Shown in pieces: positions 957-61,200 of a stretch of DNA of 64,000 nucleotides. The notes beneath the pieces were generated by a model that was not told the origin of the DNA, did no database searches, and saw nothing but the letters and a program-made list of their open reading frames with translations. The first letter of the stretch is position 1. Each line of letters begins with the position of its first letter. The position numbers were made by a program, and so were the translations under genes. Source of the stretch: Rhodocyclales bacterium (GTDB taxonomy: Bacteria; Pseudomonadota; Gammaproteobacteria; Burkholderiales; Rhodocyclaceae); assembly GCA_016214145.1 (NCBI GenBank), contig JACRPA010000002.1, forward strand, positions 310,001 to 374,000. The letters are read 5' to 3'.

Positions 957-2114
957 TCATGCCGCCACCGCGGCCAGCCCTTTCAGTTTTCTTGTCGTCT
1001 CGTCGAGCGCCTGCAAAAAGCGCGCGACATCCTCTTCCGTATTGCCGCGGCCGAGCGAGACGCGCAGCGCGCTCTTCGCCATGCCCGCCTCGACGCCCAT
1101 CGCCAGCAGCGTGTGCGAGGGCTCGGGCGAGACGCTCGAGCAGGCCGAACCGCTCGCCACCGCGTAGCCGGCGCGATCCAGCTGCGCCACCAGGGTCTCG
1201 CCGTCGATGCCCGCCACTGCAAAAAATGTCGTGTTCGGCAGGCGCGGCGCATTGCGGCTGAATATCTGCGTCTCCAGCAGCGCCAGGCCCTGCTCCAGCC
1301 GGCTGCGCAGGTCCGTCAGTCGTGCGGCATCGGCTTCCAGCCGCGCCGTCGCCAGCTCGCAGGCGGCGCCGAAACCGACGATGGCCGCCACGTTCTCCGT
1401 GCCGGAGCGCAGGTTGCGCTCCTGGCCGCCGCCGGAAATCAGCGGCTTCAGCTCCACCCGCTTGTCCAGCACCAGCGCCGCGGCGCCCTGCGGCCCGTAG
1501 ATCTTGTGCGCGGAAACCGTTAGCGCGTTCACGCCGGCGGCGTTCAGCGCGCGAAAGTCGATTTTCACCTTGCCCAGCGCCTGCACCGCGTCGGTGTGGA
1601 ACCAGGCGCGCGCCACCTTCGCCTGCGCCGCCAGGGCGGGGATGTCCTGCAGCACGCCGGTCTCGTTGTTGGCGAGCATCACCGACACCAGCTTCGCCGG
1701 CTTGGACAGCGCCGCGGAAAAGTCAGTCTCCGCAATACGGCCCTCGGCATCCACGGCGATCTCATGCACGTCCCAGCCTAGGCGCTTCAGGTCGGCCGCC
1801 GGCTCGCGTACGCAAGGGTGCTCGATGGCCGACACCGCAATGGTTCCAGGCTTCAGGCAGGCCGCCGCGCCCTTGATGAAAAGATTGTTGGCCTCCGAAC
1901 CGCCGCTGGTGAACACCACCTCGGTCGGATGCGCCCCCACCGCCGCCGCCACCTGCTGGCGCGCCGTGTCGATGGCGGCGCGCGCCGCGCGGCCGTACTC
2001 GTGGCGGCTCGATGCGTTGCCGTAGCGTTCCGTCAGGAACGGCAGCATCGCCTCCAGCACGCGCGCATCGAGCGGCGTGGTGGCGTTGTGGTCGAGGTAG
2101 GCCGGGGCGAACAT
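957..2114 (-). CDS. Second cysteine desulfurase (NifS/IscS-like, class V aminotransferase)
   Basis: A 385-residue PLP-dependent cysteine desulfurase, paralogous to the neighbouring iscS. It starts MFAPAYLDHNATTPLDARVL; the PLP lysine lies in VSAHKIYGPQG and the catalytic cysteine in SGSACSSVSPEPSH, so the active site looks intact. Its length fits group I (IscS/NifS) enzymes. It lies 15 bp downstream of iscR on the same strand, so it is probably cotranscribed and IscR-controlled. Two desulfurases in tandem behind iscR suggest divided labour or redundancy in sulfur supply; selenium delivery to the Sec pathway is possible but unsupported. A copy of the dispersed 22-bp motif lies in the gene at 1719-1740, encoding RIAETDFS. 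Confidence 0.9.
   Translation of the reverse strand: MFAPAYLDHNATTPLDARVLEAMLPFLTERYGNASSRHEYGRAARAAIDTARQQVAAAVGAHPTEVVFTSGGSEANNLFIKGAAACLKPGTIAVSAIEHPCVREPAADLKRLGWDVHEIAVDAEGRIAETDFSAALSKPAKLVSVMLANNETGVLQDIPALAAQAKVARAWFHTDAVQALGKVKIDFRALNAAGVNALTVSAHKIYGPQGAAALVLDKRVELKPLISGGGQERNLRSGTENVAAIVGFGAACELATARLEADAARLTDLRSRLEQGLALLETQIFSRNAPRLPNTTFFAVAGIDGETLVAQLDRAGYAVASGSACSSVSPEPSHTLLAMGVEAGMAKSALRVSLGRGNTEEDVARFLQALDETTRKLKGLAAVAA
1719..1740 (-). repeat. Dispersed 22-bp motif, copy 1
   Basis: On the minus strand CCGTA, seven bases, then exact GACTGACTTT. It lies inside the second cysteine desulfurase gene, read as ..IAETDF.. in that protein. Confidence 0.8.
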
Positions 2115-2129
2115 GGCTCGCGTGTAGTA

Positions 2130-2612
2130 TCAGGCGGACACCACCGCGTTGTCGCGCCGCGAGCCGCGCAGGCGGTCGTCGATCGCCACCGAGGCCGCGA
2201 TGGCCTTGGCCTTCGGCTGGTTCACCAGGTCGTACAGCGACACCGAGGCGAGATACTCGTGCATGCGCTTGTTGAGGTTGGTCCACAAGTCGTGGGTCAT
2301 GCAGCGGTGCTCGTCCTGGCAGTTCTCGCGGCCGCCGCAGTTGGTGGCGTCGAGCGGCTCATCCACCGCCGCGATGATGTCGGCGACGGTCACCTCGTTC
2401 ATGGCGCGCGCCAGGCGATAGCCGCCGCCGGGCCCGCGCACGCTCGCCACGATGCTGTGGCGGCGCAGCTTGCCGAACAGCTGCTCGAGGTAGGACAGGG
2501 AAATCTTCTGGCGCTCGCTGATGCCCGCCAGCGTCACCGGCCCGTTGGCCTGGCGCTGGGCCAGGTCGATCATTGCCGTCACTGCAAACCGGCCTTTAGT
2601 CGTCAGTCTCAT
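2130..2612 (-). CDS. iscR: Fe-S cluster regulator IscR (Rrf2 family)
   Basis: Rrf2-family transcription factor that senses Fe-S cluster status and represses the isc operon. 160 residues, starting MRLTTKGRFAVTAMIDLAQR, with a winged helix covering roughly residues 1-80 (SLSYLEQLFGKLRRHSIVASVRGPGGGYRLA). The three cluster cysteines appear in CGGRENCQDEHRCMTH, the IscR spacing. A GGAGAGGA ribosome-binding site precedes the ATG. It is the first gene of a minus-strand run with two cysteine desulfurases. The upstream DNA holds a near-consensus promoter overlapped by two IscR type 1-like sites, so it probably represses itself as in Escherichia coli. Confidence 0.95.
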   Translation of the reverse strand: MRLTTKGRFAVTAMIDLAQRQANGPVTLAGISERQKISLSYLEQLFGKLRRHSIVASVRGPGGGYRLARAMNEVTVADIIAAVDEPLDATNCGGRENCQDEHRCMTHDLWTNLNKRMHEYLASVSLYDLVNQPKAKAIAASVAIDDRLRGSRRDNAVVSA

Positions 2613-2648
2613 GGTTGGGTCCTCTCCAAAGTGGCGCTGGTGCGCCTA

Positions 2649-3442: not shown

Positions 3443-3469
3443 CAATCAGCTCCATCAGAAAACGCTGAA

Positions 3470-6238: not shown

Positions 6239-6559
6239 TCGGTATTTCGCTGAGACCGCGAAAGAAAAATCCCCCTCGACGAACTCTGGCAGGAAATCAC
6301 CGGCCGCGCCGAAGGCTACCGCCCGCTGCCGCCGGCACGGCTCGAAGTCGCACACAGAGACATACTGCAACAGCCCCCCTCCCCGGAAGCCTCGTCCTGC
6401 CCGCCGTCCCACAGGGACTGACTTTTCCCGGCGGTATTTCTTCTTCAGGCGGCAACATTGCCGGCAGGTTCGTCTGAACAGACTAACCAGATGGTATATT
6501 CTAAAAAGTCTGTTTGATTGGCGGCGGTTTCTACGCCTTCTTCGTGTTATTGGTTGCAC
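6239..6559. other. Gene-poor stretch with a frame-shifted coding remnant
   Basis: No intact gene is visible. 6276-6395 retains a coding-like frame without a start. 6404-6425 carries a copy of the dispersed 22-bp motif. From about 6430 composition drops to AT-rich sequence leading to the next small gene, which may include its promoter (TATATTCT near 6494). Confidence 0.5.
6404..6425 (+). repeat. Dispersed 22-bp motif, copy 2
   Basis: CCGTC, seven bases, then exact GACTGACTTT on the plus strand, inside the decayed stretch. One of only two copies in this orientation. Confidence 0.7.
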
Positions 6560-8907: not shown

Positions 8908-8929
8908 ATAGTCAGTCTGCGCGATACGG
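8908..8929 (-). repeat. Dispersed 22-bp motif, copy 3
   Basis: Minus strand CCGTA, seven bases, GACTGACTAT (one mismatch in the core). Intergenic, just downstream of the TPR lipoprotein. Confidence 0.75.
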
Positions 8930-8999
8930 CGATGCTGCCACTTAAAGGCAACGGTGTCGATATTTCTGCAAAACCCCTGATAGGCAACGGAGTTCCCTC

Positions 9000-11384: not shown

Positions 11385-11411
11385 TGGATTCCCGCCTTCG
11401 CGGGAATGACG
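11385..11411. repeat. Short REP-like hairpin
   Basis: ATTCCCGCCTTCGCGGGAAT, a common hairpin repeat in proteobacteria, lies between the convergent hydrolase and sodC genes and may help end transcription from both sides. A related form is at 5255-5289. Confidence 0.65.
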
Positions 11412-11415
11412 AGCG

Positions 11416-11928
11416 CTACCGCTTGACGATCACGCCGCAGGCCATGCGCGCGCCGGAGTTGCCGGTGGGCTGGGTCTTGAAGTCGTCGGGCGCGGCGTGG
11501 ACGATGACGCCACGGCCGAGAATCCCTGAAGCGCCTTCAAAAGTCAGTCCCTGCAATACGGCGACGAGCCTGGCGTTGCCATAGGCGTCGGCCTCCAGCA
11601 TCGGCATGTCGCCGGCGTGGTGCGGCCCCTGCTGCGGGTGGCCGTGCGGATGGCCGCCGGGGTTGAAGTGGCCGCCGGCGCTGGTGCCGTCGGGCGCGCT
11701 GCAGTCGCCCTTCTCGTGGATGTGGAAGCCGTGCGCGCCGGGGGTAAGGCCGGCGACGTGAGCCGTCACCTCGACGTCATGGCCCATCTGCCTGAAGACG
11801 ACGGTGCCGGTGGTGGTGTGGCCCTGGGTCGGGGCCAGCTTGGCCTCGGCGGACGGGCCATGGTGGTGGCCGGCGCAGGCGGACAGCAGGACGGCGGCGG
11901 AGGCGGCGGTGATCAGGGTCATTTTCAT
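11416..11928 (-). CDS. sodC: Cu/Zn superoxide dismutase, lipoprotein
   Basis: Converts superoxide to oxygen and hydrogen peroxide in the periplasm. 170 residues from the ATG at 11928; AGAGGAGAG lies upstream of it, while an in-frame upstream ATG lacks one. Signal peptide MKMTLITAASAAVLLSACAG has lipobox LSAC. The metal-site motif HGFHIHEKGDCSAPDGTSAG, HFNPGG and the His-rich HPHGHPQQGPHHAGDM are present, as is the C-terminal GNSGARMACGVI. The His-rich insert may collect copper or zinc. It contains a copy of the dispersed motif at 11540-11561, encoding AVLQGLTF. Confidence 0.93.
   Translation of the reverse strand: MKMTLITAASAAVLLSACAGHHHGPSAEAKLAPTQGHTTTGTVVFRQMGHDVEVTAHVAGLTPGAHGFHIHEKGDCSAPDGTSAGGHFNPGGHPHGHPQQGPHHAGDMPMLEADAYGNARLVAVLQGLTFEGASGILGRGVIVHAAPDDFKTQPTGNSGARMACGVIVKR
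11540..11561 (-). repeat. Dispersed 22-bp motif, copy 4
   Basis: Minus strand CCGTA, seven bases, exact GACTGACTTT, inside sodC and read as AVLQGLTF. Confidence 0.8.
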
Positions 11929-11960
11929 TTTGGTCTCTCCTCTGTTGGGGTTGGGTACGA

Positions 11961-12344
11961 CTAGAAAATCATGGTGCTCCATTCCGGGTCGAGGGTGCGC
12001 GCGACGAAGGCCGCGGCACCCGCCGCTCCTGAATACTCCGGGATGAGGGGCCGGTCAACCAGGCCGTGGGCGTGGAAGGCCATCTGGCAGACGAGGAACT
12101 TCACGCCGCGCCCGGAGGCGTCGCGCATGAAGTCGTGGATCGAGCGCTCGCGGCCAGGCGAGGAATACATGTCCTCCGCAACGCCCGGCTCGAGCAGCTT
12201 CACAGCGGTGCCGGCGAAATGGATCTCCACCTCGCAGTCCATCGCTACCGCCGTGACTGCGTACACGAAAGGCGCGGCGGCCAGCTCGGGGCGCTCGGGC
12301 GACAGCGACCAGACGAGGATAGCGAGTTTGCTGCGTGGATTCAA
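11961..12344 (-). CDS. DsrE-family protein
   Basis: 127 residues with an apparent TTG start overlapping the upstream stop (TTGA). KLAILVWSLSPERPELAAAP at the start and GVKFLVCQMAFHAHGLVDRP near the middle fit the DsrE/DsrF fold, with a conserved-position cysteine in VCQMAFHA that in relatives carries sulfur as a persulfide. It pairs with a lipoyl-domain protein directly upstream. Similar DsrE plus lipoate-binding-protein pairs occur in sulfur-transfer (sHdr-type) systems, but no Hdr genes are seen here, so the pathway is open. Confidence 0.78.
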   Translation of the reverse strand: MNPRSKLAILVWSLSPERPELAAAPFVYAVTAVAMDCEVEIHFAGTAVKLLEPGVAEDMYSSPGRERSIHDFMRDASGRGVKFLVCQMAFHAHGLVDRPLIPEYSGAAGAAAFVARTLDPEWSTMIF

Positions 12345-12775: not shown

Positions 12776-12799
12776 GGTTTTCTTTGCGACGGCCGCTGA

Positions 12800-12900
12800 A
12801 ATCCCCCCAACCACCCTTTTTCAAAGGGGGGCTTCCTTGCGTTCCCCCCTTTGTCCCACAGGGATTCCCTTCGGTCGCAAAAGGGGGGCCGGGGGGGATT
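12800..12900. repeat. C/G-run inverted repeat, family C
   Basis: Blocks of AATCCCCC, CTTTTTCAAAGGGGGG and TTCCCCCCTTTG fold back on each other between the lipoyl-protein gene and tRNA-Sec. The same family occurs at 19444-19551 upstream of fdoI. Role unknown; a REP-like element. Confidence 0.7.
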
Positions 12901-13006: not shown

Positions 13007-14929
13007 TCATAAGACCCACTGCCTTTCGCTTTCACCGCCGCGCAGGGCGTGTTCGTCGCGCACGCGGCGAGTGTAACCGACGCGGTCGAAGAATTCGAGG
13101 ATGTGGATGGCGACCTTGCGTCCGCCGCCGATCTCGTCGCGCAGCTCGGCCGCGCGGGCGGTGCCGTCGCGGGCGGTGCCGTCGCGGGCGCACAGGCGGG
13201 CGACGCGTCCGGCGAGGTCGGCCACCGCCGCCGCCGCGAAGTAGTGGTCGTGCGCCACGGGATAGACCTGGCCGACGCGGGCGACGCGCTTCAACAGGCC
13301 GCGCACGGTCTCCTCGGCGATGCCGGTGGCCTTGGCGATGTCGCGCACTCGCGGCGGGCCGTAGGGCTCGGCCTCCAGCAGGGGCTTCAGCGTATTCCAG
13401 AGATCGGCATCAGTGGCGGCGAGCACGGCGCGGTGCTCGGGCAGGTGCAGCCAGCTGCCGCTCTGCGCCAGTTCATTCGATGCGAGGAGTTCGAAAGTCA
13501 GTCTGTCGAAGGCGGCGCGGGACAGCGTCGGCAGCGCCAGCCGCCGCAGGCGGTCGCGCTCGACGCCGATCATGTCGGGGGCGCGTTCGTGCTCGGCGCG
13601 CGCCGCATCGAGCAGCCGCTGGCGCAATACCTGCCAGTTGGCCGACGAGAAGCCGCTGCGGCCGCCCGCCTCCTCGATGACGACGAGGCCCATGTCGCGC
13701 CACAGCGCCTGCGCCTCGGCGGCGGCGATGTTGTGGTTGAGGGCATAGCGGTCGAGGTTGACGCCGGCGATCTGGCGCGCGAGGGCGTGCGCCAGTGCCG
13801 GCTGCGGATCGGCCTGGTCGAGCAGGCGCAGGTACTCCAGCCGCTCCGGGGCGCGCTTGTGGCGCGAGGGCGGAAAGATGTCCAGCACGCGACCGCCGCC
13901 GATCGTGCGCGTGGCGGACTGGTCGCGCAGGATGAAATGGTCGCCCCACAACGCCCCGACGGGTTTCTCCAGAATGATTTCCGCCAGCATGGCTTCGCCC
14001 GGTGCCGCGGCGTCGCCTTCGAGCAGGGCAGCGCGTCCGATAATGTCTGACGCACCGAGATGCACATGCACCGGCATCCAGTGCTTGATCGGCGCATCCG
14101 CCGAGGCGGGCACGCGCAGGCGAACATGGAAACGGTTGATCGGTGCATGCAGGGCCGGATCGACGACCCACATGCCGCGCGTAATGTCCTCCTTGCCGAA
14201 GTCGCCGGCGAGGTTGAGCGCGAGGCGCTCGCCTGCCCCGCCTTTCCGGGCATCGCGGTCCTGGGCGTGGATGCCGCGCACGCGGGCGGGGAAGCCCGGC
14301 GGCGTGACGATCACTGAATCACCGACGGTGACCTTGCCCGAGAAGGCGGTGCCCGTCACCACCAGGCCGACGCCCTGCAGGGTGAAGCAGCGGTCGATGG
14401 CGTGGCGGAAACCGCCCGCCGCGGCGCGCACCGCCTGCTGGCCGGCTTCGGCCAGCAGATGCGCATGGAGGGCCTCGATGCCCTCTCCTTTCGTTGCCGA
14501 CACCTCGAACAGCGGCACGCCTTCCAGCGCGGTGCCGGCCAGCAGCGCGGCGATCTCCGCCCGCGCCGCCGCGCGCCGCTCGCCGGCGACCGCATCGACC
14601 TTGGTCAGCGCCACGGCGCCGCGCCCGAGGCCGAGCAGGTCGACGATGGCAAGGTGCTCGCGTGTCTGCGGCATCGGCCCGTCGTCGGCGGCTACCACCA
14701 GCAGGACGAAATCGATGCCGGTGGCCCCGGCCAGCATGTTGTGCACCAGCCGCTCGTGGCCGGGCACGTCGACGAAGCCGAGGCGTCCCTCGTCGGCATA
14801 GGCGTAGCCGAGGTCGAGCGTGATGCCGCGCGCCTTCTCCTCCTTCAGGCGGTCGCAGTCCACGCCGGTCAATGCCTTGACCAGCGTAGTCTTGCCGTGG
14901 TCGATGTGTCCGGCGGTGCCGACGATCAT
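13007..14929 (-). CDS. selB: Selenocysteine-specific elongation factor SelB
   Basis: GTPase that delivers Sec-tRNA to the ribosome at UGA codons followed by a SECIS hairpin. 640 residues. G-domain motifs: [17 protein letters not shown], the switch region [19 protein letters not shown] and ALTKVDAV. Translation-factor beta barrels follow, then C-terminal winged-helix domains that bind SECIS RNA. A 15-bp tandem repeat near 13153-13190 gives [12 protein letters not shown] in the last winged helix, a small in-frame expansion. A dispersed-motif copy is at 13494-13515 (FDRLTF). A family B repeat separates it from the upstream GIY-YIG gene. Confidence 0.96.
13494..13515 (-). repeat. Dispersed 22-bp motif, copy 5
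   Basis: Minus strand CCGCC, seven bases, exact GACTGACTTT inside selB. The CCGTA half is degenerate here; the core is perfect. Confidence 0.65.
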
Positions 14930-17614: not shown

Positions 17615-17636
17615 AAAGCCAGTCTCCTTGGCATGG
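17615..17636 (-). repeat. Dispersed 22-bp motif, degenerate copy 6
   Basis: Minus strand CCATG, seven bases, GACTGGCTTT: two differences from consensus but the exact spacing is kept. It overlaps the start of the following membrane-protein gene. Confidence 0.45.
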
Positions 17637-18493
17637 CGCACACGATGACGATAAACCCGAATCGCATCCCACTACGGAATACCGCCTCGCGTACGACGGA
17701 TGTCGACATGAAAGATGCCGAGGCTCAGGTCAAGAAGGCTTTCGACAAGGCCAATTCAGAAATTGAGTCCGTATTCCAGGAAAGCATGGCCCTTGAGAGC
17801 CAAGGGGAACTTGACGCTGCCGCCAAGGCGCGTATCGAGGCGCATTTGCATGAGATATCAACCGGGCTTGATAAGGAGCTGGATAAACAAATCGCCGAGG
17901 TAAAAGCCAGCTATGCAGCACCAAATCGCCGGGTTCTGCCAAAGCGATTTCGGGTACCTGCCATTGCGATGCTTTTTTTCGTGCTGATTGGCTCGATTCT
18001 TGAGTTCACAGTTGGAGACGCTTTCATCTTCGCGGGAGCCAATGACTATCGGCGCGCCATACCATGGTTGCTTTCAGTCGTAGTGCCGCTCATCGCTGTT
18101 GGCCTATTCCTGCTCGAGAAAGCCAACCACGGCATGAGGGCACAATTCCCCACTTGGGTAATCCGCTGGCTGGTCATGTTTCCGCTCACGATTGCGATGT
18201 GCTCAGCAGCGCTCGTTGTTTCCCCTCTTGGATGGGCTTCGGTTCTCGGATGGGTTGCTGGCACACCGACAGAGCACTTGGAGGCCATCGTAATCTCGGT
18301 TGACTCCCCCTCCCGCTATTCCAGGTCGGGAGAATGCGATCAGTACGCCAATCTGGAATTTCGCGCAATCACCGCGAGGGTATGCATTGAAGGCCTCATG
18401 GTGGGAGCGACGCCCCAGAAGGGCGACAAGGTAGCGTTGAGCGGCCGGTTCTCTTCGCTCGGTCTGTTCATCGAAAGCATCCGCGGGAAATAG
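17633..18493 (+). CDS. Membrane protein of unknown function
   Basis: 286 residues from 17633; ATGs at 17645 and 17708 are alternatives. An N-terminal charged coiled-coil stretch (AQVKKAFDKANSEIESVFQE; IEAHLHEISTGLDKELDKQI) is followed by about four membrane segments: VPAIAMLFFVLIGSILEFTV, AIPWLLSVVVPLIAVGLFLL, WVIRWLVMFPLTIAMCSAAL and the next hydrophobic stretch. The C-terminal part (EAIVISVDSPSRYSRSGECD; DKVALSGRFSSLGLFIESIR) looks beta-rich and soluble. I do not recognise it. GC is lower than the neighbouring fdh genes, which suggests it came in with the adjacent toxin-antitoxin pair. Confidence 0.6.
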   Translation: MAHTMTINPNRIPLRNTASRTTDVDMKDAEAQVKKAFDKANSEIESVFQESMALESQGELDAAAKARIEAHLHEISTGLDKELDKQIAEVKASYAAPNRRVLPKRFRVPAIAMLFFVLIGSILEFTVGDAFIFAGANDYRRAIPWLLSVVVPLIAVGLFLLEKANHGMRAQFPTWVIRWLVMFPLTIAMCSAALVVSPLGWASVLGWVAGTPTEHLEAIVISVDSPSRYSRSGECDQYANLEFRAITARVCIEGLMVGATPQKGDKVALSGRFSSLGLFIESIRGK

Positions 18494-18502: not shown

Positions 18503-19420
18503 TTACGCGCCGCCCGGCACCAGCAGGAGGTTGGGGCCGCTGCGCGAGAAGCCGGATTCGTCGACCAGGATGTCGAGGGCCAGGGTGGCGAGGTCGTCGG
18601 CGACGGGATCGGCGCTGGCGTCCTTGTCGCGGCGGACGAGCTTCAGGTAGGACTTGCAGACGTCGCAGGTCTCCGCCTGCACCAGGCCCTTGTCACCCTC
18701 GATGTGCTGGTAGGCGACGGCGCTCTCGCCCGCGTCGCAGGCGGTGCAACTGGCGCGCGTCAGGTGCCATTCCGTGTTGCACAGCGAGCAGTGCAGGAAG
18801 CGCAGGCCGGGCAACTCGGGGCTGGCGCCGATGACGCTGGCCGAGGGCAGCGCACCGCAGCAGGGGCAGACGCCGGGGACGTCGAGCGGCTGCGGCGTAG
18901 CGTGGCCGAGCTGCGTCGCCAGCCGCGTCCAGTAGACCTGCAGGGCGGCAGCGACGAAAGGCAGCTTGTCGGCGTGCACGCCGTAGAGTTCGGTGCGCAG
19001 AACGCGGTCGGCCAGGGCCTCCAGCGCTGCGTCGTCGAGTTGCCCGATCGCCTTGAGTGTGACGGCGGCCGCTTCGCTTGCCGCGGGAGCAACCTCTTCG
19101 AGGATGGCGCGCAACGCCTTGCGCCAGGCCGAATCGCGCCGCCACGACTGCGCCGGCACGACCGGCATGCCGTGCTGGCGGGACTGACTTTGCGCCGCGT
19201 CGTCCGGCACGGGCACGGCGGGCATGGCGTCGAGGGCGCGCTGCTGGGCCTGCGCGAGGCGGCCCATGAAGCGCAGGTAGTCGCCGAGGGGATGGCCTTC
19301 GGCCAGTTGTGTGAAGCGGCGCGCGCGATGGGCGAAGACGTCCTTCGCGTCGGCCGCCAGGACGCGCGGCGGCTCGCCGCTGGCCTGGGGAATCTGTCCG
19401 GGTTCGAGGAGTGTGGTCAT
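18503..19420 (-). CDS. fdhE: Formate dehydrogenase accessory protein FdhE
   Basis: Needed for maturation of respiratory formate dehydrogenases in E. coli, where it binds the catalytic subunit. 305 residues from the ATG at 19420 (MTTLLEPGQIPQASGEPPRV); a longer upstream frame would run through a repeat. Rubredoxin-like cysteine pairs are intact: VCPCCGALP, HCSLCNTEW, SCTACDAG and ETCDVCKSYLK. It lies downstream of fdoI in the order fdoG-fdoH-fdoI-fdhE as in E. coli, separated by a C-run repeat. A dispersed-motif copy in the reverse orientation lies at 19170-19191 (QSQSRQHGMP). Confidence 0.94.
   Translation of the reverse strand: MTTLLEPGQIPQASGEPPRVLAADAKDVFAHRARRFTQLAEGHPLGDYLRFMGRLAQAQQRALDAMPAVPVPDDAAQSQSRQHGMPVVPAQSWRRDSAWRKALRAILEEVAPAASEAAAVTLKAIGQLDDAALEALADRVLRTELYGVHADKLPFVAAALQVYWTRLATQLGHATPQPLDVPGVCPCCGALPSASVIGASPELPGLRFLHCSLCNTEWHLTRASCTACDAGESAVAYQHIEGDKGLVQAETCDVCKSYLKLVRRDKDASADPVADDLATLALDILVDESGFSRSGPNLLLVPGGA
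19170..19191 (+). repeat. Dispersed 22-bp motif, copy 7
   Basis: CCGTG, seven bases, exact GACTGACTTT on the plus strand, inside fdhE but antisense to it, so it is read in a third frame (..QSQSRQHG..). Confidence 0.75.
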
Positions 19421-24344: not shown

Positions 24345-24366
24345 AAAGTCAGTCTCCCCGATACGG
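24345..24366 (-). repeat. Dispersed 22-bp motif, copy 8
   Basis: Minus strand CCGTA, seven bases, exact GACTGACTTT, in the divergent fdoG/moaA intergenic region. It lies beyond the tandem repeats, on the moaA side. Confidence 0.8.
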
Positions 24367-24466
24367 CGCGCATGCCCCTGAATTTGAGATGGTTTTGTCG
24401 CAAAACGGCACGCTTGCATTCGTTTGCGATTTATCGGAAAGTTGGACATCAGAACTTGAGTCAGCC

Positions 24467-28462: not shown

Positions 28463-30318
28463 GAAAAATAGAACGGCCGGCCGACGGCGTGGCCCTGGGC
28501 GTAGTCGACACCCATCTCGCGCAGGCGGTTGAGCGCGCCTTCCGTCTCGACGAATTCGGCGATGGTCTTCATGCCGAGCGAGTGGGCGATGTTGTTGATG
28601 GCGGAAACCACCTCGAGATTCATCGGTTCGGCGAACATGTCGCGCACGAAGGCGCCGTCGATCTTGACGTAATCCACCGGCAGGTGCTTGAGGTAGGCGA
28701 AGGAACACATGCCGGCGCCGAAATCGTCCAGCGCGAAGCGCAGCCCCAGCCCCTTCAGCTCGCGAATCAGGTCGGCCGCCTTGGTCAGGTTGGCCACCGC
28801 CAGCGTCTCGGTGATCTCGAAGCAGATGACCTCGGCCGGCACCCGGTGCAGGGCGATCTGCTCGCGCACGAATTGCGGGAAGCGGCTGTCGTTGATGCTT
28901 TCGGCGGACAGGTTGATGTCGAACACCGGCAGGCTGTCCGGCGCGGCCTCGCACTCGCGGCGGATCGCCGGCAGCGCATTCGCAATCACCCAGCGGTCGA
29001 TGGCCTGCATCATGTTGTGCCGCTCGGCGGAGGGGATGAAGACCATCGGCGGCACGAGCTTGCCGTCGCGGTCGATCATGCGCAGCAGCAGCTCGAAATG
29101 CCGCGACTTCGAAGTCGCCTCGTCGAGGCCGGCGATGCGCTGGCGAAAGAGGCGGAAACCGTTGCGCTCGATGGCGTCGTGGATGGTCTCGACGATGTTC
29201 ATGTCGGCGCGCGGCTGGTGGCTGGCGGCCTTGGCGTGATAGACGCGGATCTGGTCGCGGCCGGCTTCCTTTGCCGCATAGCAGGCGGCGTCGGCCTGTT
29301 CCATCGCCTCCTCCGCGCTGACAGTCTGGTCGGACAGCACCACCAGGCCGATGCTGGCGCCGACGTGGAAGACCTTCTCGCGCCAGACGAAGCGGAAGTT
29401 GGAGACGTCCATGCGGATGGCGTTGGCGATGCGCAGCGCCTGCTCCACCGGGCAGGCGCGCAGCAGCACGGCGAATTCGTCGCCGCCCATGCGCGCCAGC
29501 ACGTCGGTGGTGCGCACGCGGGCGCGCAGCACTGCGGCGATCTGGCGCAGGAACTCGTCGCCGGCGGCGTGGCCGCCGCTGTCGTTGATCAGCTTGAAGC
29601 GGTCGAGGTCCATGAAAAGCAGCGTGTGCTGCTTGTCGGGCTCGCCGCCGACTTCGATGGCCTTGCGCAGCTGATCCTCGAAACCGCGGCGATTGACCAG
29701 GGTGGTCAGGGCGTCGTGGTTGGCCTGCCAGAACAGTTCGAGGGAAATGCCGTGCGGGACGGAGACGTCCTCCATGGCGAGGAAGCTCACCTGGCGGCGG
29801 CCGCTGTCCTCGCAGGCGCAGCTGATGTCGAGCACATGTTCGTTGTCGGCGCTGTCCCGCAATACTGCGCGCACTGCAGGGGACGATTCGCCGCAGGTAG
29901 CCTGCAACTGATCGAGCAGCACCGGCGAGCCGTCCGCAGCGCTGTGCAGGGGAAAGGCCTTGCCGAAATCGAGGCCGGTCAGTTCCGCCTGCTCGATGCC
30001 CGCCAGCCTGGCTGCCGCCGCGTTGGCGAAGAAGATGTGGCTGCGATCGTCCAGGCCGACCACGGCGATATCCACGCAGCGGAAGGCGGTGTCGATCAGG
30101 CTGAGCTGGTCGCGCAGCCGGCTGGAGGAAATCGAATTCCACGCCAGCCAGCCGCCAAGGGCGCTCGCCCCGCCCAGCCCGGCGAACCAGAATACGGTGA
30201 CCGGCTGGTTGCCATCGGCGGGACCGAGCGCCAGGGCCGCGCCGCAGGAGAACAGCACGGCCAGCGCGGCGAGGACGCGCCAGACAATGTTCAAGGTGTG
30301 CCGATGCACTGCGCTCAT
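28459..30318 (-). CDS. GGDEF-EAL protein (cyclic-di-GMP turnover)
   Basis: 619 residues with an ATG overlapping the rmuC stop (ATGA). Two N-terminal membrane segments (VWRVLAALAVLFSCGAALAL; VTVFWFAGLGGASALGGWLA), then a PAS-like part (AVVGLDDRSHIFFANAAAAR), a diguanylate cyclase domain with an intact active site (RMGGDEFAVLL; TLLFMDLDRFKLINDSGGHA) and an EAL phosphodiesterase domain. In the latter FELLLRMID replaces the EAL triplet, but downstream metal-site motifs INLSAESIND, EITET, DDFGAG, VKIDG and EFVET look intact. It may make or break cyclic-di-GMP. Trigger unknown. Confidence 0.9.
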   Translation of the reverse strand: MSAVHRHTLNIVWRVLAALAVLFSCGAALALGPADGNQPVTVFWFAGLGGASALGGWLAWNSISSSRLRDQLSLIDTAFRCVDIAVVGLDDRSHIFFANAAAARLAGIEQAELTGLDFGKAFPLHSAADGSPVLLDQLQATCGESSPAVRAVLRDSADNEHVLDISCACEDSGRRQVSFLAMEDVSVPHGISLELFWQANHDALTTLVNRRGFEDQLRKAIEVGGEPDKQHTLLFMDLDRFKLINDSGGHAAGDEFLRQIAAVLRARVRTTDVLARMGGDEFAVLLRACPVEQALRIANAIRMDVSNFRFVWREKVFHVGASIGLVVLSDQTVSAEEAMEQADAACYAAKEAGRDQIRVYHAKAASHQPRADMNIVETIHDAIERNGFRLFRQRIAGLDEATSKSRHFELLLRMIDRDGKLVPPMVFIPSAERHNMMQAIDRWVIANALPAIRRECEAAPDSLPVFDINLSAESINDSRFPQFVREQIALHRVPAEVICFEITETLAVANLTKAADLIRELKGLGLRFALDDFGAGMCSFAYLKHLPVDYVKIDGAFVRDMFAEPMNLEVVSAINNIAHSLGMKTIAEFVETEGALNRLREMGVDYAQGHAVGRPFYFS

Positions 30319-31766: not shown

Positions 31767-34259
31767 TTACGCCAAGGCCCGCAGGCTCTGCAGGGCCGGG
31801 GCGCGCAGGCTGCGCGCGGTGCCGGCCAGCCCGGCCAGCGTGATGCCGAGCACGCCCCCCAGCACCCCCGCCGGCAGCACCAGCCAGGCCGGTTCATAGG
31901 GGATCTGGAAGACGAAGCGGCCGAGCAGCCAGCTGATGATGGCCGAGCCGACGCCGGCCACGACACCCGAGATCGCGCCGAGTACAGCGAACTCCGCCGC
32001 CAGCGCGGCGCGCAGCTGGCGGTTGCGCGCGCCGAGGGTGCGCAGCACGGCGATCTCGTACTCGCGCTCGTCGTGGGTGGATTCCAGCGCGGCATACAGC
32101 ACCGCCAGCCCGGCGACGAGGGAGAAGGCGAAGACGAACTGCACCGCCCGCGCCAACTGGTCCATCACCGACTGAAACTGACGCAGTATGGAGGCGACGT
32201 CGATCACCGTCAGGTTGGGATGCGCCGCCACCAGTTCGCCGACGAAGCCGACGCGGTCGGGCGGCAGGTGGAAACTGGTGATGTAGCTGGTCGGGAACGG
32301 TTCCAGCACGCCGGGCGGCGTGACGACGAAAAAGTTGACCCGCATCGAGTCCCAGTCGAGCTTGCGCAATGAAGTGATCCTCGCCTCCAGCCGGCGGCCG
32401 GCGATCTCGTAGACCAGGACATCATTCAGCTTCAGCTTCAGCGTGTCGGCCAGCCCCTGCTCCACCGAAAACTGCGGCGTACCCGCATCCTGCTCGGCGA
32501 ACCAGCGGCCCGCCGTGAGCGAGTTGCCCTCGGGCAGATCGGCCACCCAGGAAAGATTGAACTCGCGCTCGACCAGACGCTGGGCGCGTTCTTCCTCGTA
32601 GTCCGCTGCGACGACCGGCCGGCCGTTCACCGCCACCAGGCGCCCGCGCACCATCGGCAACAGCGCCGGCTTCTCCAGCCCCTTCCCGGCAAAAAATGCA
32701 AGCACCGGCTCGCGCTGTTCCGGCTGGATATTGATGACGAAGCGGTTGGGCGCATCCGGCGGCACGCTGCGCTTCCAGGAGGCCAGCAGGTCGTCGCGCG
32801 CCAGGGTGAGCAGCAAGAGCGCCGTCATGCCCAGGCCGAGGGCCACAGCCTGGATCACGCTGGTGCCGAGGCGGCGATGCAGCGAGGCGATGCCGTAGCG
32901 CCAGCTGGCGCCGGCGGCGCCGCGCAGCCGGCCGATGGCGGCCAGCGCCAGCCGCGCCACGACGGCGTAGAAGGCCACGGCCACGGAAAACAGGCCGAGC
33001 ACCCACAGGCCGAGCTTGAGATCGGCCGCCATCCACAGCATGAGGGCCGCCAGCACCGCCGCGCCGAAGGCATAGCCGGTCCACGCCAGCGGCTCGCTGT
33101 CGGCCCATTCGCGCCGCAGCACGCGCACGGTGGGGACGTTGCGCAGGCGCATCAGCTGCGGCAGGGCGAAGCCGGCCAGCAGCGCCAGGCCGACGGCAAA
33201 ACCGTAGGCCAGCGGCAAGGGCGAAGGCGCCGGCAGCGTGGCCGTCAGCAGGTTCGACAGCAGCCGCTCCAGCGCGTACTGGGCGCCGAAGCCGATCAGG
33301 CAGCCGAGCGCCGAAGCGATGGCGCCGAAGAGCAGAAATTCGCCGAGATAGATGCGCAGCAGCTGGCTCTCGCGCGCGCCGAGGCAGCGCATCACGGCGC
33401 AGCCGTCGAGATGCCGCTGCATGAAGCGGCGCGATGCAAGGCCGACGGCGACGGCCGCCAGCACCGCCGCCAGCAGCGCCGCCAGGCGCAGGAACTTCTC
33501 GGCGCGGTCGAGGGCATTGCGCACCTCGGGCCGCGCGTTGTCCAGGCTTTCGATGCGCTCGCCGCGGCCGAGGCGCTTCTCCGCCCATTTCTGGTAGATG
33601 GCGACGGCCTTCGCCTCCCCGGCCAGATGCAGGCGCCAGGTCACCCGGCTGCCGACCTGGATGAGCTGGGTGGCCGGCAGGTCGTCGATGTGCATCATCA
33701 GGCGCGGCGCGATGTTGAAGAAATTCACGCCGCGGTCCGGCTCCAAAGTCAGCACCGCCGATACGGCGAGGCGGGCGCTGCCGAGCCGCACAACGTCGCC
33801 GACCTTCGCCTCCAGCGCGGCGGTCAATCGCTCGTCCAGCCACACCGTGCCGCGCGCCGGCGTTTCCCGCGTTTCGCTGTCGGGCTGGTTGAGCGCGGGG
33901 GCGGTGCGCAGCGCGCCGCGCAAGGGATAGCCCGGCTGCACCGCCTTGAGGTCGGCGAGGTGGCTGGCGCCATTGGCCGCCGTCATGCTCGGGAAACTCA
34001 CGCTGCCGATGGCGCGCAGGCCGAGCCGTCCGGCTTCGTCACGGTAGGCGGCATCCCAGGGATGGTCGGCCAGCAGCAGCAGGTCGCCGCCGAGCAGTTG
34101 ATGCGCTTCGCGCGCCAGGGCGCGCGAGAGGCGGTCGGAGAAGAAGCTCACGCTCGACAGGCTGGCCACGGCGATGAGCAGCGCCAGGCCGAGCAGGCGC
34201 AATTCGCCGGCGCGGAAGTCGCGCTTGAGCATCTGCCAGGAGAGATGCCAATTGGACAC
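31767..34259 (-). CDS. FtsX-type ABC transporter permease (YbbP-like)
   Basis: 830 residues with a GTG start at 34259 (MSNWHLSWQMLKRDFRAGEL). Two FtsX-like domains, ten or so membrane segments, and a large periplasmic part between LLGLALLIAVASLSSVSFFS and the FLRLAALLAAVLAAVAVGLA segment. It ends in a second FtsX block (FAFSLVAGLAVLYAALESTH, SGVVAGVGSAIISWLLGRFV). This matches the YbbP family, usually paired with the YbbA ATPase and TesA; no ATPase gene lies beside it here. Likely role is lipid or lipoprotein export, unproven. Motif copy at 33745-33766. Confidence 0.88.
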   Translation of the reverse strand: MSNWHLSWQMLKRDFRAGELRLLGLALLIAVASLSSVSFFSDRLSRALAREAHQLLGGDLLLLADHPWDAAYRDEAGRLGLRAIGSVSFPSMTAANGASHLADLKAVQPGYPLRGALRTAPALNQPDSETRETPARGTVWLDERLTAALEAKVGDVVRLGSARLAVSAVLTLEPDRGVNFFNIAPRLMMHIDDLPATQLIQVGSRVTWRLHLAGEAKAVAIYQKWAEKRLGRGERIESLDNARPEVRNALDRAEKFLRLAALLAAVLAAVAVGLASRRFMQRHLDGCAVMRCLGARESQLLRIYLGEFLLFGAIASALGCLIGFGAQYALERLLSNLLTATLPAPSPLPLAYGFAVGLALLAGFALPQLMRLRNVPTVRVLRREWADSEPLAWTGYAFGAAVLAALMLWMAADLKLGLWVLGLFSVAVAFYAVVARLALAAIGRLRGAAGASWRYGIASLHRRLGTSVIQAVALGLGMTALLLLTLARDDLLASWKRSVPPDAPNRFVINIQPEQREPVLAFFAGKGLEKPALLPMVRGRLVAVNGRPVVAADYEEERAQRLVEREFNLSWVADLPEGNSLTAGRWFAEQDAGTPQFSVEQGLADTLKLKLNDVLVYEIAGRRLEARITSLRKLDWDSMRVNFFVVTPPGVLEPFPTSYITSFHLPPDRVGFVGELVAAHPNLTVIDVASILRQFQSVMDQLARAVQFVFAFSLVAGLAVLYAALESTHDEREYEIAVLRTLGARNRQLRAALAAEFAVLGAISGVVAGVGSAIISWLLGRFVFQIPYEPAWLVLPAGVLGGVLGITLAGLAGTARSLRAPALQSLRALA
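33745..33766 (-). repeat. Dispersed 22-bp motif, copy 10
   Basis: Minus strand CCGTA, seven bases, TGCTGACTTT (two core changes), inside the permease gene, read as AVSAVLTL. Confidence 0.65.
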
Positions 34260-47810: not shown

Positions 47811-48913
47811 AGGTCGGCCGCCGCCTGCTGTCCCTTGAGTCGCCGCGCGTGGGCATGGCGCGCCTGCAGTCGCGGATCGGTGACGATCATGCCGACCGTC
47901 TCGCCCACCACCATGGCGATGCCCAGCAGCGGCAGCACCAGCATCAGGCCGGCCACCCCCGCCACCGCGCCGCCGACGAAGATCATCAGCACGGTGAGCA
48001 GCGGATGCATGCGCAGGCTGCGACCGATGGTCAGCGGCATGAAGACGAAATCGTCGAGCAGCCTTGCCAGGATGAAGACGACGATGGCGCCGTAGGCCAT
48101 CCCCGGATCGAGCGGAAAGTCCGTCGCCGCCACCAGCACCACCAGCAGGCAGCCGAGGATGGAACCGACATAGGGCACCCAGGCCAGCACCGCGCAGACC
48201 AGGCCGAGCATCAGGGGCCCCGACAGGCCGATCACCCAGAGGCCGATGGCCAGCGCGATGGTGTCGAGGATGGTCAGGCTGATCAGTCCCTGGAAATAGG
48301 CGCGCGCCGTCTTGTCCATTTCGTGCATCAGGTAGAGCGTGCGCTCGAAGAAGGCATTGGGCACGGCGTTGGCGATGAACTTCGTGAAGCGGCGCCCGTC
48401 GCGCAGGAAGAAGAAGGCAAGGAAGGGCGCCAGCAGCAGCGCCGGCAGCCAGGCGGCCAGCGTGACGACAAAGTCGGCCAGATAGCGCTGGGCGAAGGTC
48501 TCGGTGAAGTTGGCGATCTGCTCGCTGACGTTGCGGCTCAGGCTGGCCCGTTCGAGGAAGGCGAACTGCACTTCCAGTCCCGCCATGGTCTTCTGCAGCA
48601 GCAGGCTGCCGCCCTCGACGTAGCGTGCCAGGGACACCTGCCAACTGACGGCATGGGAGCTGATCCAGGGAAACAGCAGGGCGGCGCAGATCAGCAGCAG
48701 CACGATGAAGCCGCCGCCGGTGATGGCGGCAGCCGTCTTGCGGTGGAAGCCGTGCAGCACCAGCCGGTGCGTCGCCGGCTGCAGAAAGTAGTAGATGATC
48801 AGGGCCAGCAGGAAGGGCACCACCAGCCAGAGCATCTTCTTGAAGAGGAAGAGCAGCAGGCAGGTCGAGGCGATGATGCCGATCCAGACGACCGGACCTG
48901 ACTTGCGGTTCAT
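47801..48913 (-). CDS. AI-2E family (PerM-type) transporter
   Basis: 370 residues from the ATG at 48913 (MNRKSGPVVWIGIIASTCLL), preferred over an upstream frame that runs through a repeat. Seven to eight membrane segments including WLVVPFLLALIIYYFLQPAT, GGFIVLLLICAALLFPWISS, FVVTLAAWLPALLLAPFLAF, LDTIALAIGLWVIGLSGPLM and LLTVLMIFVGGAVAGVAGLM; AYGAIVVFILARLLDDFVFM is the family core. Members are called autoinducer-2 exporters or Na/H antiporters, but substrates vary. Its end overlaps the globin remnant. Confidence 0.88.
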   Translation of the reverse strand: MNRKSGPVVWIGIIASTCLLLFLFKKMLWLVVPFLLALIIYYFLQPATHRLVLHGFHRKTAAAITGGGFIVLLLICAALLFPWISSHAVSWQVSLARYVEGGSLLLQKTMAGLEVQFAFLERASLSRNVSEQIANFTETFAQRYLADFVVTLAAWLPALLLAPFLAFFFLRDGRRFTKFIANAVPNAFFERTLYLMHEMDKTARAYFQGLISLTILDTIALAIGLWVIGLSGPLMLGLVCAVLAWVPYVGSILGCLLVVLVAATDFPLDPGMAYGAIVVFILARLLDDFVFMPLTIGRSLRMHPLLTVLMIFVGGAVAGVAGLMLVLPLLGIAMVVGETVGMIVTDPRLQARHAHARRLKGQQAAADLQV

Positions 48914-54908: not shown

Positions 54909-58218
<3,310 letters not shown>

Positions 58219-58230
58219 GTCCAGTCCCGG

Positions 58231-61200
58231 TCAGGCAGGCACGGCCTCGTCGCTCATGCGCAGCGCCTCCTCGATGTCCACCTCGACGACACGCGAGACG
58301 CCCTGCTCCTGCATGGTGACGCCGACCAGTTGGCGCGCCATCTCCATGGTGATCTTGTTGTGCGTGATGAAGAGGAACTGCGTCTGCGCCGACATGCGCT
58401 TGACCATGTCGCAGAAGCGCTCGGTGTTGCTGTCGTCGAGCGGCGCGTCCACCTCGTCGAGCATGCAGAACGGCGCCGGGTTGAGCTGGAACAGCGCGAA
58501 CACCAGGGCGATGGCGGTGAGCGCCTTCTCGCCGCCGGAGAGCAGGTGGATGGTGCTGTTCTTCTTGCCGGGCGGCTGCGCCATGACCTGGATGCCGGAG
58601 TCGAGGATCTCCTCGCCGGTGAGGATCAGCCTCGCCTCGCCGCCGCCGAAGAGCTGCGGGAAGAGGATGCCGAACTGGCGGTTCACGTTGTTGTAGGTGT
58701 CCTGCAACTGCTCGCGCGTTTCGCGGTCGATGCGGCGGATGGCGTCTTCCAGCGTGCCGATGGCCTGGTTGAGGTCCTCCGACTGGCTGTCGAGGAAGCC
58801 CTTGCGCTCGCGCGAGGTGTTGAGCTCGTCCAGGGCAGCCAGGTTCACCGGGCCGAGCCCCTCTATTTCGGCGGAAAGACGCGCGATGTCGCCGGCCAGC
58901 TGCGGCTCCTTCACCTCCCGCGTCAGCTCCGGCGCCAGTTCCTCCTCGTTGGCGCTGGCCTCGGCCAGGCGGGCGGCGCACTGCTCCTCGTTGATCTGCG
59001 CGGCCTGCTCCTTCAGGCGCAGGTCGTTGATCCTGTCGCGCAGGGGATTCAGGCCCTGCTCGGTCTTCAGGCGCGCTTCCTCCAGTTGGCGCAGCTCGGC
59101 GGCGGCGCCTTCCAGCGCGTCGCGATGCGTCGCCAGCGCGCCTTCGCGGCCCTGGCGCGCCGCCAGCGCCTGCTGCAATTGCTGCTCGATCGCGCCCTCG
59201 CTGATGGATTCGCCCTCCTGTCGGCGCGCGGCCATTTCCGCGGTGATGCGCCCGACCTGCTCGCGCGCCACTTCGCGCGAACGGCCGATCTCCTCCAGTT
59301 TGCCCGTGCATTCGCGTTCGGCGAAGCGCGACTCCTGCAGTTCGCGCGCAAGGGCCTGCTCGACGGTGCGCTGCTCGCGCAGCGCGCCGTCGCGCCGGCG
59401 GCTCTCCTCGATCGCCGCCTCCAGCTTGCCGCGCAGTTCCTGCACTATGGAAGTCAGTCGCGCCACCTCACCGTCGGCGATCTGCCGGCGGCTGCGCTCG
59501 GTTTCCTCGCCGGCGGCGATTTCCGTCAGGTCGGCGTTGATCTGCGCGACACGGGCCTCGCAGCGCTGCACCGCCTCGCCCAGCTTGACCGCCTCGACCT
59601 GCGACGCGTGCGCCGACTGCTGCAGTTCCTGCGCCTCGCGCTGGGCGTCGGCCAGGTGGCTGCGATGGTCGGCCAGGCCGGACTCGGCCGCGACCAGCGT
59701 CGCCGCAGCGATGCGGGCCTCGTCCTCCAGCCCGACGCACTCGGCGTCCAGTTGCCCGATCTCGCGCTGGCGCTCGATGACGCCATGGGTGCGCGCCTCC
59801 GGCACATAGAGAACAAAGCTGTGGCGCGAGACGACGTGGCCGGCCTGACTCACCCACAGGCGGCCGCCGGGCAGGCTGGCGCGGCGCGCGGCCAGGCCGC
59901 CGAGATCGTTCACCACGTAGACGCCGGCGAGCCATTCGGTGAGGGCGGCTTCCCAGCGCGGGTCCGCGCAGCGCACCTTGTCGCGCAGCGGCACGTCGGC
60001 GTCGAGACCGGCAGTCTCGCCCGCCGTCGCCACGTCGCCGGCGAACACCAGCGCCAGCGTCGCCGGCGGCGGATCGGCCAGCACGCGCTCGGCGGTCGGC
60101 TGGTCGACGCCGGCCAGCGCGCCCAGGCGCTCACGCAGCACCGCTTCCAGCGCGGTCTCCCAGCCGGGTTCCACCTTCAGGCTGGACCAGATCGGCTCGG
60201 CGGCATCGAGGCCGTGGCGCTTCAGCCAGTCGCCCAGCTTGCCTTCCTGCTGGATGCGGCTCTGCAATTGTTTGAGGGCGTCGCGGCGGGCGCGCGCTTC
60301 GGTCAGGCGCTTCTGTGCGCTGGCCTGGGCTTCGGCGGCCTCGCGGCGCTGCGCCTCGTGCTCGGGCAGGCGCTGCTGCAGTTCGGTCACGCGGCTGCGC
60401 CGCGCGTCCACCTGCGTGGCGAGTTCGGCCACATGCGACTGCAGGGCGGCCAGCGCGGCGGTGTCGGGCTGCGCAAGCTGGCCGCGATCGGCCTCCAGGC
60501 GGCCGCGGCGCTGCGCCAGCGATTCGAGCGTCTTGTCGGCGTGGCTCTTGTGCGCCTCCTCGACGCGCAGACCCTGCTCGGCCTGGGCCAGTTCGCGGCG
60601 CAGGGCGTGGGCAGCTTCCTCGGCGGCCTTGAGGGCGCTTTCCGCCTCGGGCAGGCGGGCGGCGGCTTCGGCATGGCGCGCCGTGGCGCCCTGCACGCGC
60701 TGCGCGGCGTTTTCCAGCAACTCCTTCCAGCGCGCCTCGTCGCGGTCCAGCGTCTCGGCCTGGCCGCGCCAGTGGCCGTCCTCGCCTTCCAGCTGGGCCA
60801 GGCGCGACTCGATCTTCTGGCGCAGATCGCGCAAGTGGTTGAGCTCGGACTCCAGCCGCGCCACCTCGGCGTTGGCGGCGAACATCTCGGTTTGGGCGGC
60901 ATGCAGGGCGTCGCTGGCGCTGTAGTGGGCGCTGCGCGCCGTCTCGACGCGGGCTTCCAGGTCGCGCAGGCTGGCGGTTTCGGCTTCCAGCTTGATGCCC
61001 GCCTGCTCGACGTTGCGCGCCAGCTTCTCGCGCTGGTCGCGCGCCTCGTTGCGCTTGTAGAGCCAGAGCAGGTTCTGCCGGCGCGTCAGCTGGACGTGCA
61101 GTTCGTTGTACTGCCTGGCCACCTCGGCCTGGCCTTCCAGCTTCTCGATCTGGTGGCCCAGCTCGTTGCGGATGTCCTCGACGCGGGCGATGTTCTCGCG

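Follow-up and report, generated by a model that had tools for sequence, protein, structure and literature searches.

Sequence-specific uptake of DNA is known from only two bacterial families, the Neisseriaceae and the Pasteurellaceae, according to excerpts of a recent account (PMC12616744, 2025). The DUS of the Neisseriaceae, which is read by the minor pilin ComP, is described there as an uninterrupted word no longer than about 13 nt (PMC12616744). All DUS dialects share CTG as their essential inner core, and two Neisseriaceae genomes have 3269 and 2245 copies, as given in parts of an earlier study (PMC3630211). The USS of the Pasteurellaceae is discontinuous, extends up to 32 nt and occurs in hundreds of copies in the account cited first (PMC12616744), and a reading-frame orientation bias is reported for it in sections of another paper (PMC2346458).

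The dispersed motif described here resembles the DUS in its hundreds of copies, its strict consensus, its occurrence in and between genes, and its conservation above that of the flanks. The CTG inner core is near invariant here too, and the motif blocks hold GCCGT and CTGA of the Neisseria 10-mer in the same order (9/10 letters), 10 bp apart, for which the chance is about 0.001. It differs from the DUS in belonging to another family, in consisting of two blocks over 25 bp instead of a contiguous 10–13 nt word of the GCCGTCTGAA type, in its lower density, and in the near absence of the inverted pairs that are frequent among DUS and act as terminators. It is similar to the USS in being long, discontinuous and present in hundreds of copies and in its reading-frame orientation bias, whereas the USS has a core of AAGTGCGGT or ACAAGCGGT together with downstream AT-rich tracts; by inspection, no such core exists here, and no tract is conserved beyond +10. 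Sequence comparison makes it likely that a genus that includes Candidatus Desulfobacillus denitrificans uses the motif as a DNA uptake sequence for self-recognition.

Copies and anatomy of the motif

The window, that is, the whole 64-kb stretch of DNA analyzed, has GACTGACTTT as its top-scoring over-represented 10-mer, with eight occurrences against 0.03 expected under an order-2 Markov model. This agrees with the sequence-only reading, which had placed eight exact cores, all found at the same positions and on the same strands, and had judged the core to be expected well under once by chance. With one mismatch allowed, the core has 12 matches in the window, while 100 shuffles gave a mean of 1.5 and a largest value of 5; one such match, at 48116, has no left half of the motif. 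Eleven window copies have at most two of the 16 fixed bases wrong. Exact copies lie at 6402–6425 (plus strand) and 24345–24368 (minus strand), both outside called genes, the best alignment of the latter to the comparison genome G002 being gapped at the site. Further exact copies, all on the minus strand, occur at 11540–11563, 30795–30818 and 55164–55187 within minus-strand genes that the sequence-only reading, rather than a family search, named sodC-like (11416–11982), rmuC-like (30315–31484) and ligA-like (54956–57082). One fixed base is off in the minus-strand copy at 1719–1742 (GGCCGT), within a minus-strand gene at 957–2114 called cysteine-desulfurase-like by reading and not by family search. 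Single mismatches are also found at 13494–13517 (minus; CGCCGC), within the minus-strand selB-like gene 13007–14929, and at 19168–19191 (plus; TGCCGT), antisense within the minus-strand fdhE-like gene 18503–19420, both gene names again coming from that reading and not from a family search.

Four looser copies had also been proposed, of which three fit the genome-wide population: 8908–8931 (minus; one mismatch, core GACTGACTAT) and 17615–17638 (minus; two mismatches), both outside called genes, and 33745–33768 (minus; two mismatches) within the minus-strand gene 31767–34259, termed permease-like by the same reading with no family search. The fourth, at 59450–59473 (minus) in an smc-like gene, has 4/16 mismatches and is at background level, as words with four mismatches number 45 against 35 simulated in a 464-kb sample of the window's own genome (hereafter the own sample); it is probably a chance occurrence. 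Eight of the 12 copies are inside genes called by our own open reading frame caller, and 6402, 8908, 17615 and 24345 are outside.

Alignments of own-genome and G002 sites gave the consensus CGCCGT-(V)YYgcggr-GACTGACTTTt, of about 25 bp, ending in TTTT at its 3' side. Its fixed part, CGCCGT-N8-GACTGACTTT, comprises 16 fixed bases in two blocks. In both samples the motif covers positions -14 to +10, the spacer between its blocks being semi-conserved, and information outside the 25 bp is near background, the flanks being unconserved. CGCCGT with at most one mismatch stands exactly eight bases upstream of an exact core at 82/86 own and 100/102 G002 sites. The left half had earlier been given as CCGTA seven bases before the core; a left block at a fixed distance is borne out, but the block is CGCCGT; the final A of CCGTA already belongs to the variable spacer, where the base right after CGCCGT is A, C or G at frequencies of 0.38, 0.28 and 0.33 in the own sample and A reaches only 0.10 in G002. 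The CTG columns are almost never mismatched (0/44 mismatches in the own sample and 2/116 in G002, at sites with at most two mismatches). The preferred spacer letters GCGG are also those of the USS inner core, which is probably a coincidence.

Genome-wide placement and distribution among genomes

The genome-wide count that the sequence-only reading had called for gave hundreds of copies: 370 exact cores against nine for the reversed word, and, when up to two mismatches are allowed, 567 full motifs against four for the control. The mismatch spectrum is bimodal, with 74, 20 and 12 sites of the own sample deviating at zero, one and two of the 16 fixed bases, and 88, 44 and 20 such sites in 800 kb of G002, while Markov simulations gave 0/0/0 for both. 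The density is about one motif per 6 kb, and the copies are spread evenly over forty 20-kb stretches of G002 (mean 2.55, variance 2.05). Copies neither crowd together nor leave a wide gap near the terminus or origin in 40 evenly spaced G002 stretches, and no replication-strand bias was seen in the G002 sample, with 54 copies on the leading and 48 on the lagging strand by hand tally (p 0.62).

Intergenic copies are in excess (33/86 own, 37/102 in G002), and within genes both orientations occur, with 33 sense and 20 antisense copies of 86 in the own sample and 42 and 23 of 102 in G002, certain reading frames being preferred. Among intergenic copies with two neighbors, 19/31 own and 30/36 G002 copies are closer to a 3' than to a 5' gene end, and those near 3' ends face either way (8:11 and 15:15). 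Inverted pairs are nearly absent: at distances up to 120 bp, the own sample has one and 60 G002 stretches have none. A small test on 13 stretches showed no enrichment in shared DNA, an expected correlate of uptake rather than its defining function: DNA that aligns to G002 has 2.0 copies per 10 kb and unaligned DNA 2.34, the latter taking in diverged orthologs and one stretch without a fetched counterpart. The full motif was found in 24 of 2.9 million viral contigs, once in 23 and twice in one, as a raw count without a chance expectation.

The carrier genus, to which the betaproteobacterium Candidatus D. denitrificans belongs, is a group of wastewater bacteria. More than 100 cores are present in 12 of 15 congeners, and the other three have 44, 19 and 4; counts in different genomes of the genus include 416, 370, 125, 44, 19 and 4. 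G009, a member of this genus, almost lacks the motif, as do the sister genera that were sampled, and a k-mer scan of 385 kb of G009 for another uptake-like dialect gave REP-like and GC-rich words only. In the rpoB tree, G012 stands apart from the other nine sampled genomes of the genus (91/94, the fork not being starred), and the rpoB and ComEC trees together leave the placement of G012 and G009 unsettled. Of the genera represented by 398 further genomes of the order, a single one is conspicuous, with 24 against 5. G283, of the same family, has 10 full motifs with at most two mismatches against 4, and G054 has 18 cores and 16 such motifs against 7. Nine of the G054 copies among those listed share one 24-mer, and the five copies read there sit in a longer repeat that is nearly identical over the core and 70 bases upstream.

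Conservation in place and rival explanations

In two sets of ungapped orthologous sites, the core is intact in 27/33 and 27/31 cases, whereas flank blocks are identical in 539/1625 and 522/1597 (0.33). Identity at these sites is 0.96 for the core, 0.975 and 0.955 for CGCCGT, 0.79 and 0.80 for the spacer, and 0.867 for the flank. The motif-poor G009 has intact cores at 0/6 and 0/10 ungapped sites. Where the core has been lost, orthologs mostly still align position by position and show scattered substitutions, and a clean 25-bp gap is in no printed alignment row, gapped rows amounting to 1/34, 2/33, 1/7 and 8/18. Alignments that do not cover the site (18/52 and 14/47 hits) were excluded from these counts; some stop no more than a few bases from the left edge of the site, and 5/18 and 3/14 have a second collinear piece across it. 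Because many ortholog alignments miss the site in this way, insertion is excluded only at covered sites; these speak clearly, and the odds on insertion were therefore left as they were.

Spread by copying of a repeat that is mobile or derived from an insertion (REP, MITE or IS end) would account for many copies scattered over both strands; this genome does contain REP-like repeats, and insertion is possible where intergenic alignments break at the left edge. Such an origin is nevertheless extremely improbable, as information falls to near background outside the 25 bp while the inner spacer varies, core-less orthologs align base for base with no clean insertion where the site is covered, and a reading-frame preference and tolerance within genes are seen; the true repeat of G054, nearly identical far upstream of the core, presents a contrast. 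A site for a chromosome-organizing or DNA-processing protein (KOPS-, Chi-, MatS-, Noc- or SlmA-like) would also have many dispersed copies, hundreds of constrained copies within genes would fit it, and a two-block 25-bp site could suit a dimeric protein. KOPS and Chi are likewise short over-represented words in coding DNA, but they are much shorter and skewed to the leading strand, in contrast to the 54:48 split here. The even coverage of terminus and origin in G002 and the near absence from G009 and the sampled sister genera also argue against such a site, chromosome-organizing systems being usually old, and this alternative is considered unlikely, if the least so of the four.

About one third of the copies fall between genes, often directly behind a 3' gene end, and TTTT closes the motif, as might be expected of a transcription-factor site, terminator or RNA signal; most copies are intragenic, though, both sense and antisense, copies near 3' ends face both ways and hairpin-capable inverted pairs are nearly absent, so there is very little probability in this reading. 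Hardly any probability is given to a nuclease, methylation or recombination-hotspot site kept by biased gene conversion with no uptake role. Two blocks with an 8-base spacer recall Type I restriction targets, and drive by gene conversion would yield the same mutation spectrum; 16 fixed bases, however, are far more than a Type I target has, and sites would not be favored to build up under restriction.

A putative uptake system and its machinery

The likeness to DNA uptake sequences put forward in the sequence-only reading is supported at the level of sequence, since it fits the distribution of the motif, its near-confinement to a single genus and its conservation at orthologous positions. That reading had named a background-level genome-wide count and freely varying spacing as grounds for abandoning it, and neither was found, because copies number in the hundreds genome-wide and spacing is fixed. 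In the proposed mechanism, a minor pilin that belongs to a type IV pilus and binds DNA would capture extracellular DNA carrying the motif, and after pilus retraction one strand would enter via ComEC. Homologous recombination would then install alleles with good motifs more often than alleles without, and the resulting drive would accumulate and maintain hundreds of copies at tolerant places, such as certain reading frames and positions just after genes. Receptor, uptake bias and drive are all parts that we infer. Against an uptake role stand the missing enrichment in shared DNA in the small test, the scarcity of inverted pairs, a density below that of the two Neisseriaceae genomes, and a receptor search that found no pilin whose presence tracks the motif.

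Among components of the machinery, comEC was found in 15/16 genomes of the genus, GspH/FimT-type pilins in 12/16 and N-methyl type IV pilins in all three genomes searched; in pilin extraction, 2/29 loci gave no protein. Pilins of the PF16732 (ComP_DUS) family score above cut-off in G000 and G002, and they occur in 22/26 genomes, the motif-less G009 and other genera among them, so that PF16732 is family-wide and no receptor tracking motif presence was found in this search. G000 and G002 have a pilin operon that we take to be MSHA-like, and an NCBIfam scan of it returned no MSHA family. Its largest pilin is present in 10/16 genomes and absent from the poor carriers G009, G012 and G013, but it is also absent from the good carriers G010, G014 and G015; it is thus no strict correlate of the motif, and it was rejected as a receptor candidate by presence correlation. 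A PDB sequence search listed general pilins and none named ComP, and true ComP homologues seem confined to the Neisseriaceae in the portions available of one study (PMC8897410).

Desulfobacillus species are denitrifiers of anammox reactors, as described in excerpts of PMC8402940, and the paper on D. denitrificans contains no occurrence of pilus, competence, transformation or uptake. If the uptake reading is true, natural transformation takes place in these bacteria or did so until recently, and the motif might offer a route for getting DNA into them. More tentatively, and with the balance rather against it, the motif may be a "split DUS" of a third lineage with sequence-specific uptake, in which GCCGT and CTGA as in Neisseria have moved 10 bp apart, about one helical turn, and are read on the same helix face by a related or convergent pilin. 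A split DUS, if true, would link the Neisseriaceae tag to another betaproteobacterial lineage and make gain and loss of uptake specificity traceable inside one genus. Because a single genus spans 416 to 4 cores, it allows the gain and decay of the motif and changes of receptor to be compared directly. If confirmed, the motif would mark a new bacterial lineage with self-DNA recognition, a third case beside the two known families, and its longer two-block tag would permit the origins of uptake specificity to be compared.

Copy number and anatomy of the motif

The eight exact copies of the core 10-mer, GACTGACTTT, that the sequence-only reading had counted in the window are all present, and this word is the top-scoring over-represented 10-mer there, where allowing one mismatch gives 12 core words and shuffled sequence gives 1.5 on average. 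Across the entire genome (G000; 12 contigs, 3.42 Mb in total), exact cores number 370, 183 forward and 187 reverse, compared with nine for the reversed word. A profile was built from the exact cores in 464 kb of G000 (86) and 800 kb (102) of G002, a congener with a complete genome (Candidatus Desulfobacillus denitrificans, AP021857.1). The two have in common a 25-bp profile, -14 to +10, outside which information drops to near background; it opens with CGCCGT, followed by one variable base, seldom T, two positions that are usually pyrimidines, a stretch where GCGG or something close to it is preferred, and one further variable position; GACTGACTTT comes next, and after it T is favoured. The left half had been read as CCGTA: its CCGT lies within CGCCGT, while its A is the variable base of the spacer, the CCGTA variant occurring at 132 of 370 cores in G000 and 41 of 416 in G002. 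The claimed fixed spacing holds, as CGCCGT (at most one mismatch) lies exactly eight bases before the core at 82/86 sites in G000 and 100/102 in G002. The first spacer base is A in a fraction of 0.38 of cores in G000 versus 0.10 in G002, possibly a dialect difference.

The genome-wide abundance that the same reading had proposed to count was borne out for CGCCGT-N8-GACTGACTTT at up to two mismatches (567 versus 4 for the control), approximately one per 6 kb in G000. Eleven such motifs lie in the window; the copy assigned to position 59450 has four mismatches and drops out of this set. Over the 16 fixed bases, the sampled sites with 0, 1, and 2 mismatches number 74, 20, and 12 in G000 and 88, 44, and 20 in G002, a bimodal distribution, compared with none in any class in an order-3 Markov simulation and 0, 1, and 3 in the motif-less congener G009. 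Column tolerance was counted on sites with at most two mismatches (106 in G000; 211, from 60 stretches, in G002). The six columns CTGACT account for only 2/44 and 5/116 mismatches, where equal columns would give 16.5 and 43.5, which marks CTGACT as the stretch of the core that tolerates change least.

The window also contains other repeats. A REP-like palindrome of the GGATTCCCGCCTTCGCGGGAATGACG type (11385-11412) has many matches in congeners including G009, some of them in close inverted pairs; a second dispersed repeat of the AAATCCCCCC...GGGGGG type (12783-12853) has matches in several congeners. A repeat around GTAGGTCGGGCTT has about 40 copies in the 464-kb sample (L032-L051 and the window) and is not among the highest-ranking words in the sample from G002.

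Distribution among genomes

The genus Candidatus Desulfobacillus is placed by NCBI in Betaproteobacteria incertae sedis. Exact cores exceed 100 in 12 of the 15 congeners, and the remaining three have 44 (G013), 19 (G012), and 4 (G009); counts range from 0 to 18 in the other 44 genomes from the family and order. In an order-wide draw of 399 genomes (up to two mismatches), with G000 as the sole representative of its genus, G118, from another family, stands out with 24 full motifs versus 5 for the control. It is followed by G054 (16 versus 7), where five copies read belong to a longer repeat; G283, of the same family as G000, has 10 versus 4, with 8/10 on one strand. In G118 (L365-L384), 9 of the 14 sites read at up to one mismatch match Desulfobacillus DNA, three at 85 to 91% identity, and six fall in one 20-kb stretch (L375) with 69% G+C versus 63% for the sample. 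This suggests a transfer of tagged DNA from a Desulfobacillus-like donor or the same system starting.

A longer-pattern scan of named genomes returned at least 74 stretches; among the matches listed, titles assign 64 to Rhodocyclaceae, Betaproteobacteria, Sulfuritalea, or D. denitrificans, the other 10 having scattered origins. An earlier report of the motif was not found in the open-licence literature on uptake sequences in Rhodocyclaceae, Rhodocyclales, and Betaproteobacteria. Papers containing GACTGACTTT are, among the matches listed, all unrelated by title, and a word search of the D. denitrificans paper gave zero mentions of pilus, competence, transformation, or uptake.

Maintenance and placement of sites

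Sites of G000 compared with G002 (82 queries) gave 52 matches, of which 18 do not cover the site and 34 are usable, one of them gapped; the reverse comparison (137 queries) gave 47 matches, 14 not covering the site and 33 usable, two gapped. Cores are intact at 27/33 and 27/31 ungapped sites, compared with 539/1625 and 522/1597 identical 10-base flank blocks. Base identity is 0.96 in the core, 0.975 and 0.955 in the left block, 0.79 and 0.80 in the spacer, and 0.867 in the flanks; thus, both blocks are conserved, and the spacer between them diverges more quickly than the flanking sequence. Where alignments stop short of the site, a second collinear piece exists in 8/32, and some end a few bases from the left edge, where insertion may have occurred. 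Against G009 (11 and 28 matches, 4 and 10 not covering the site), intact ungapped cores number 0/6 and 0/10, core identity is 0.62 and 0.65 with flanks at 0.83 and 0.82, and gaps lie inside the site in 1/7 and 8/18. No clean 25-bp gap appears in the printed alignment rows, so the motif changes by substitution in place at covered sites. The aligned G009 sites showed no relics, and a scan of 385 kb of that genome gave no substitute motif.

Gene placement was taken from our own ORF caller (coding fraction 0.854 in G000, 0.900 in G002). The 86 sites of G000 comprise 33 sense, 20 antisense, and 33 intergenic, and the 102 of G002 comprise 42, 23, and 37, an intergenic excess with p of about 5e-8 and 1e-12, respectively. 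Among intergenic sites with two neighbours, 19/31 (G000) and 30/36 (G002) are closer to the 3' end of a gene than to a 5' end, and in 13/31 and 26/36 no more than 30 bases separate the motif midpoint from a 3' end; these intergenic sites occur in both orientations. The favoured frame reads (G/R)LT(F/L) at 24/33 and 33/42 sense sites and KVS at 12/20 and 19/23 antisense sites, and the core's TGA is the called gene's stop codon (GAC TGA) at five sites per sample. A reading-frame orientation bias is described for known uptake sequences (PMC2346458). When cumulative GC skew is used to place the origin and terminus, G002 sites show no replication-strand bias (54 leading versus 48 lagging, p 0.62); across 40 evenly spaced 20-kb stretches, the mean count is 2.55 and the variance 2.05.

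Uptake machinery and the likeness to DNA uptake sequences

The DNA import channel gene comEC is found in 15/16 genomes of the genus, the exception being G012 (81% complete), and GspH/FimT-type pilins in 12/16. N-methyl pilins number 12 in G000, 11 in G002, and 6 in G009. A pilin operon, which we take to be MSHA-like, lies at G000:C9:489668-491925 and G002:C1:475969-477785; its largest pilin is present in 10/16 genomes, missing from three motif-poor ones and also from three good carriers. Members of the Pfam family ComP_DUS, named after the receptor of the Neisseriaceae DNA uptake sequence (DUS), score 37.1 bits in G000 and 44.8 bits in G002 (cut-off 27.3). They are only candidate receptors because the family is also present in motif-less genomes and, according to PMC8897410, ComP homologues seem confined to Neisseriaceae.

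The Neisseria 10-mer DUS is GCCGTCTGAA, with CTG as its essential core (PMC3630211). Both motifs have GCCGT and CTGA in the same order; unlike in the contiguous Neisseria DUS, 10 bases separate them here. A split match of at least nine letters has p of about 0.001 in a random block-pair simulation, before allowing for other comparable known sequences, and the likeness may reflect homology, convergence, or chance. The Desulfobacillus motif is also a poor fit to a simple copy of known uptake systems, as inverted pairs are almost absent, density is lower, and no enrichment in shared DNA was seen.

A nearly genus-specific, strand-neutral, gene-tolerated motif, whose copies run into the hundreds, are conserved base by base, and show a sharp mutational halo, is the profile that molecular drive via biased uptake would be expected to leave: preferential uptake of motif-bearing DNA would drive and maintain the hundreds of copies. 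Since a DUS is contiguous, the motif is not classed as one; judged from its sequence pattern, it would work like a DUS in Desulfobacillus without being one by form.
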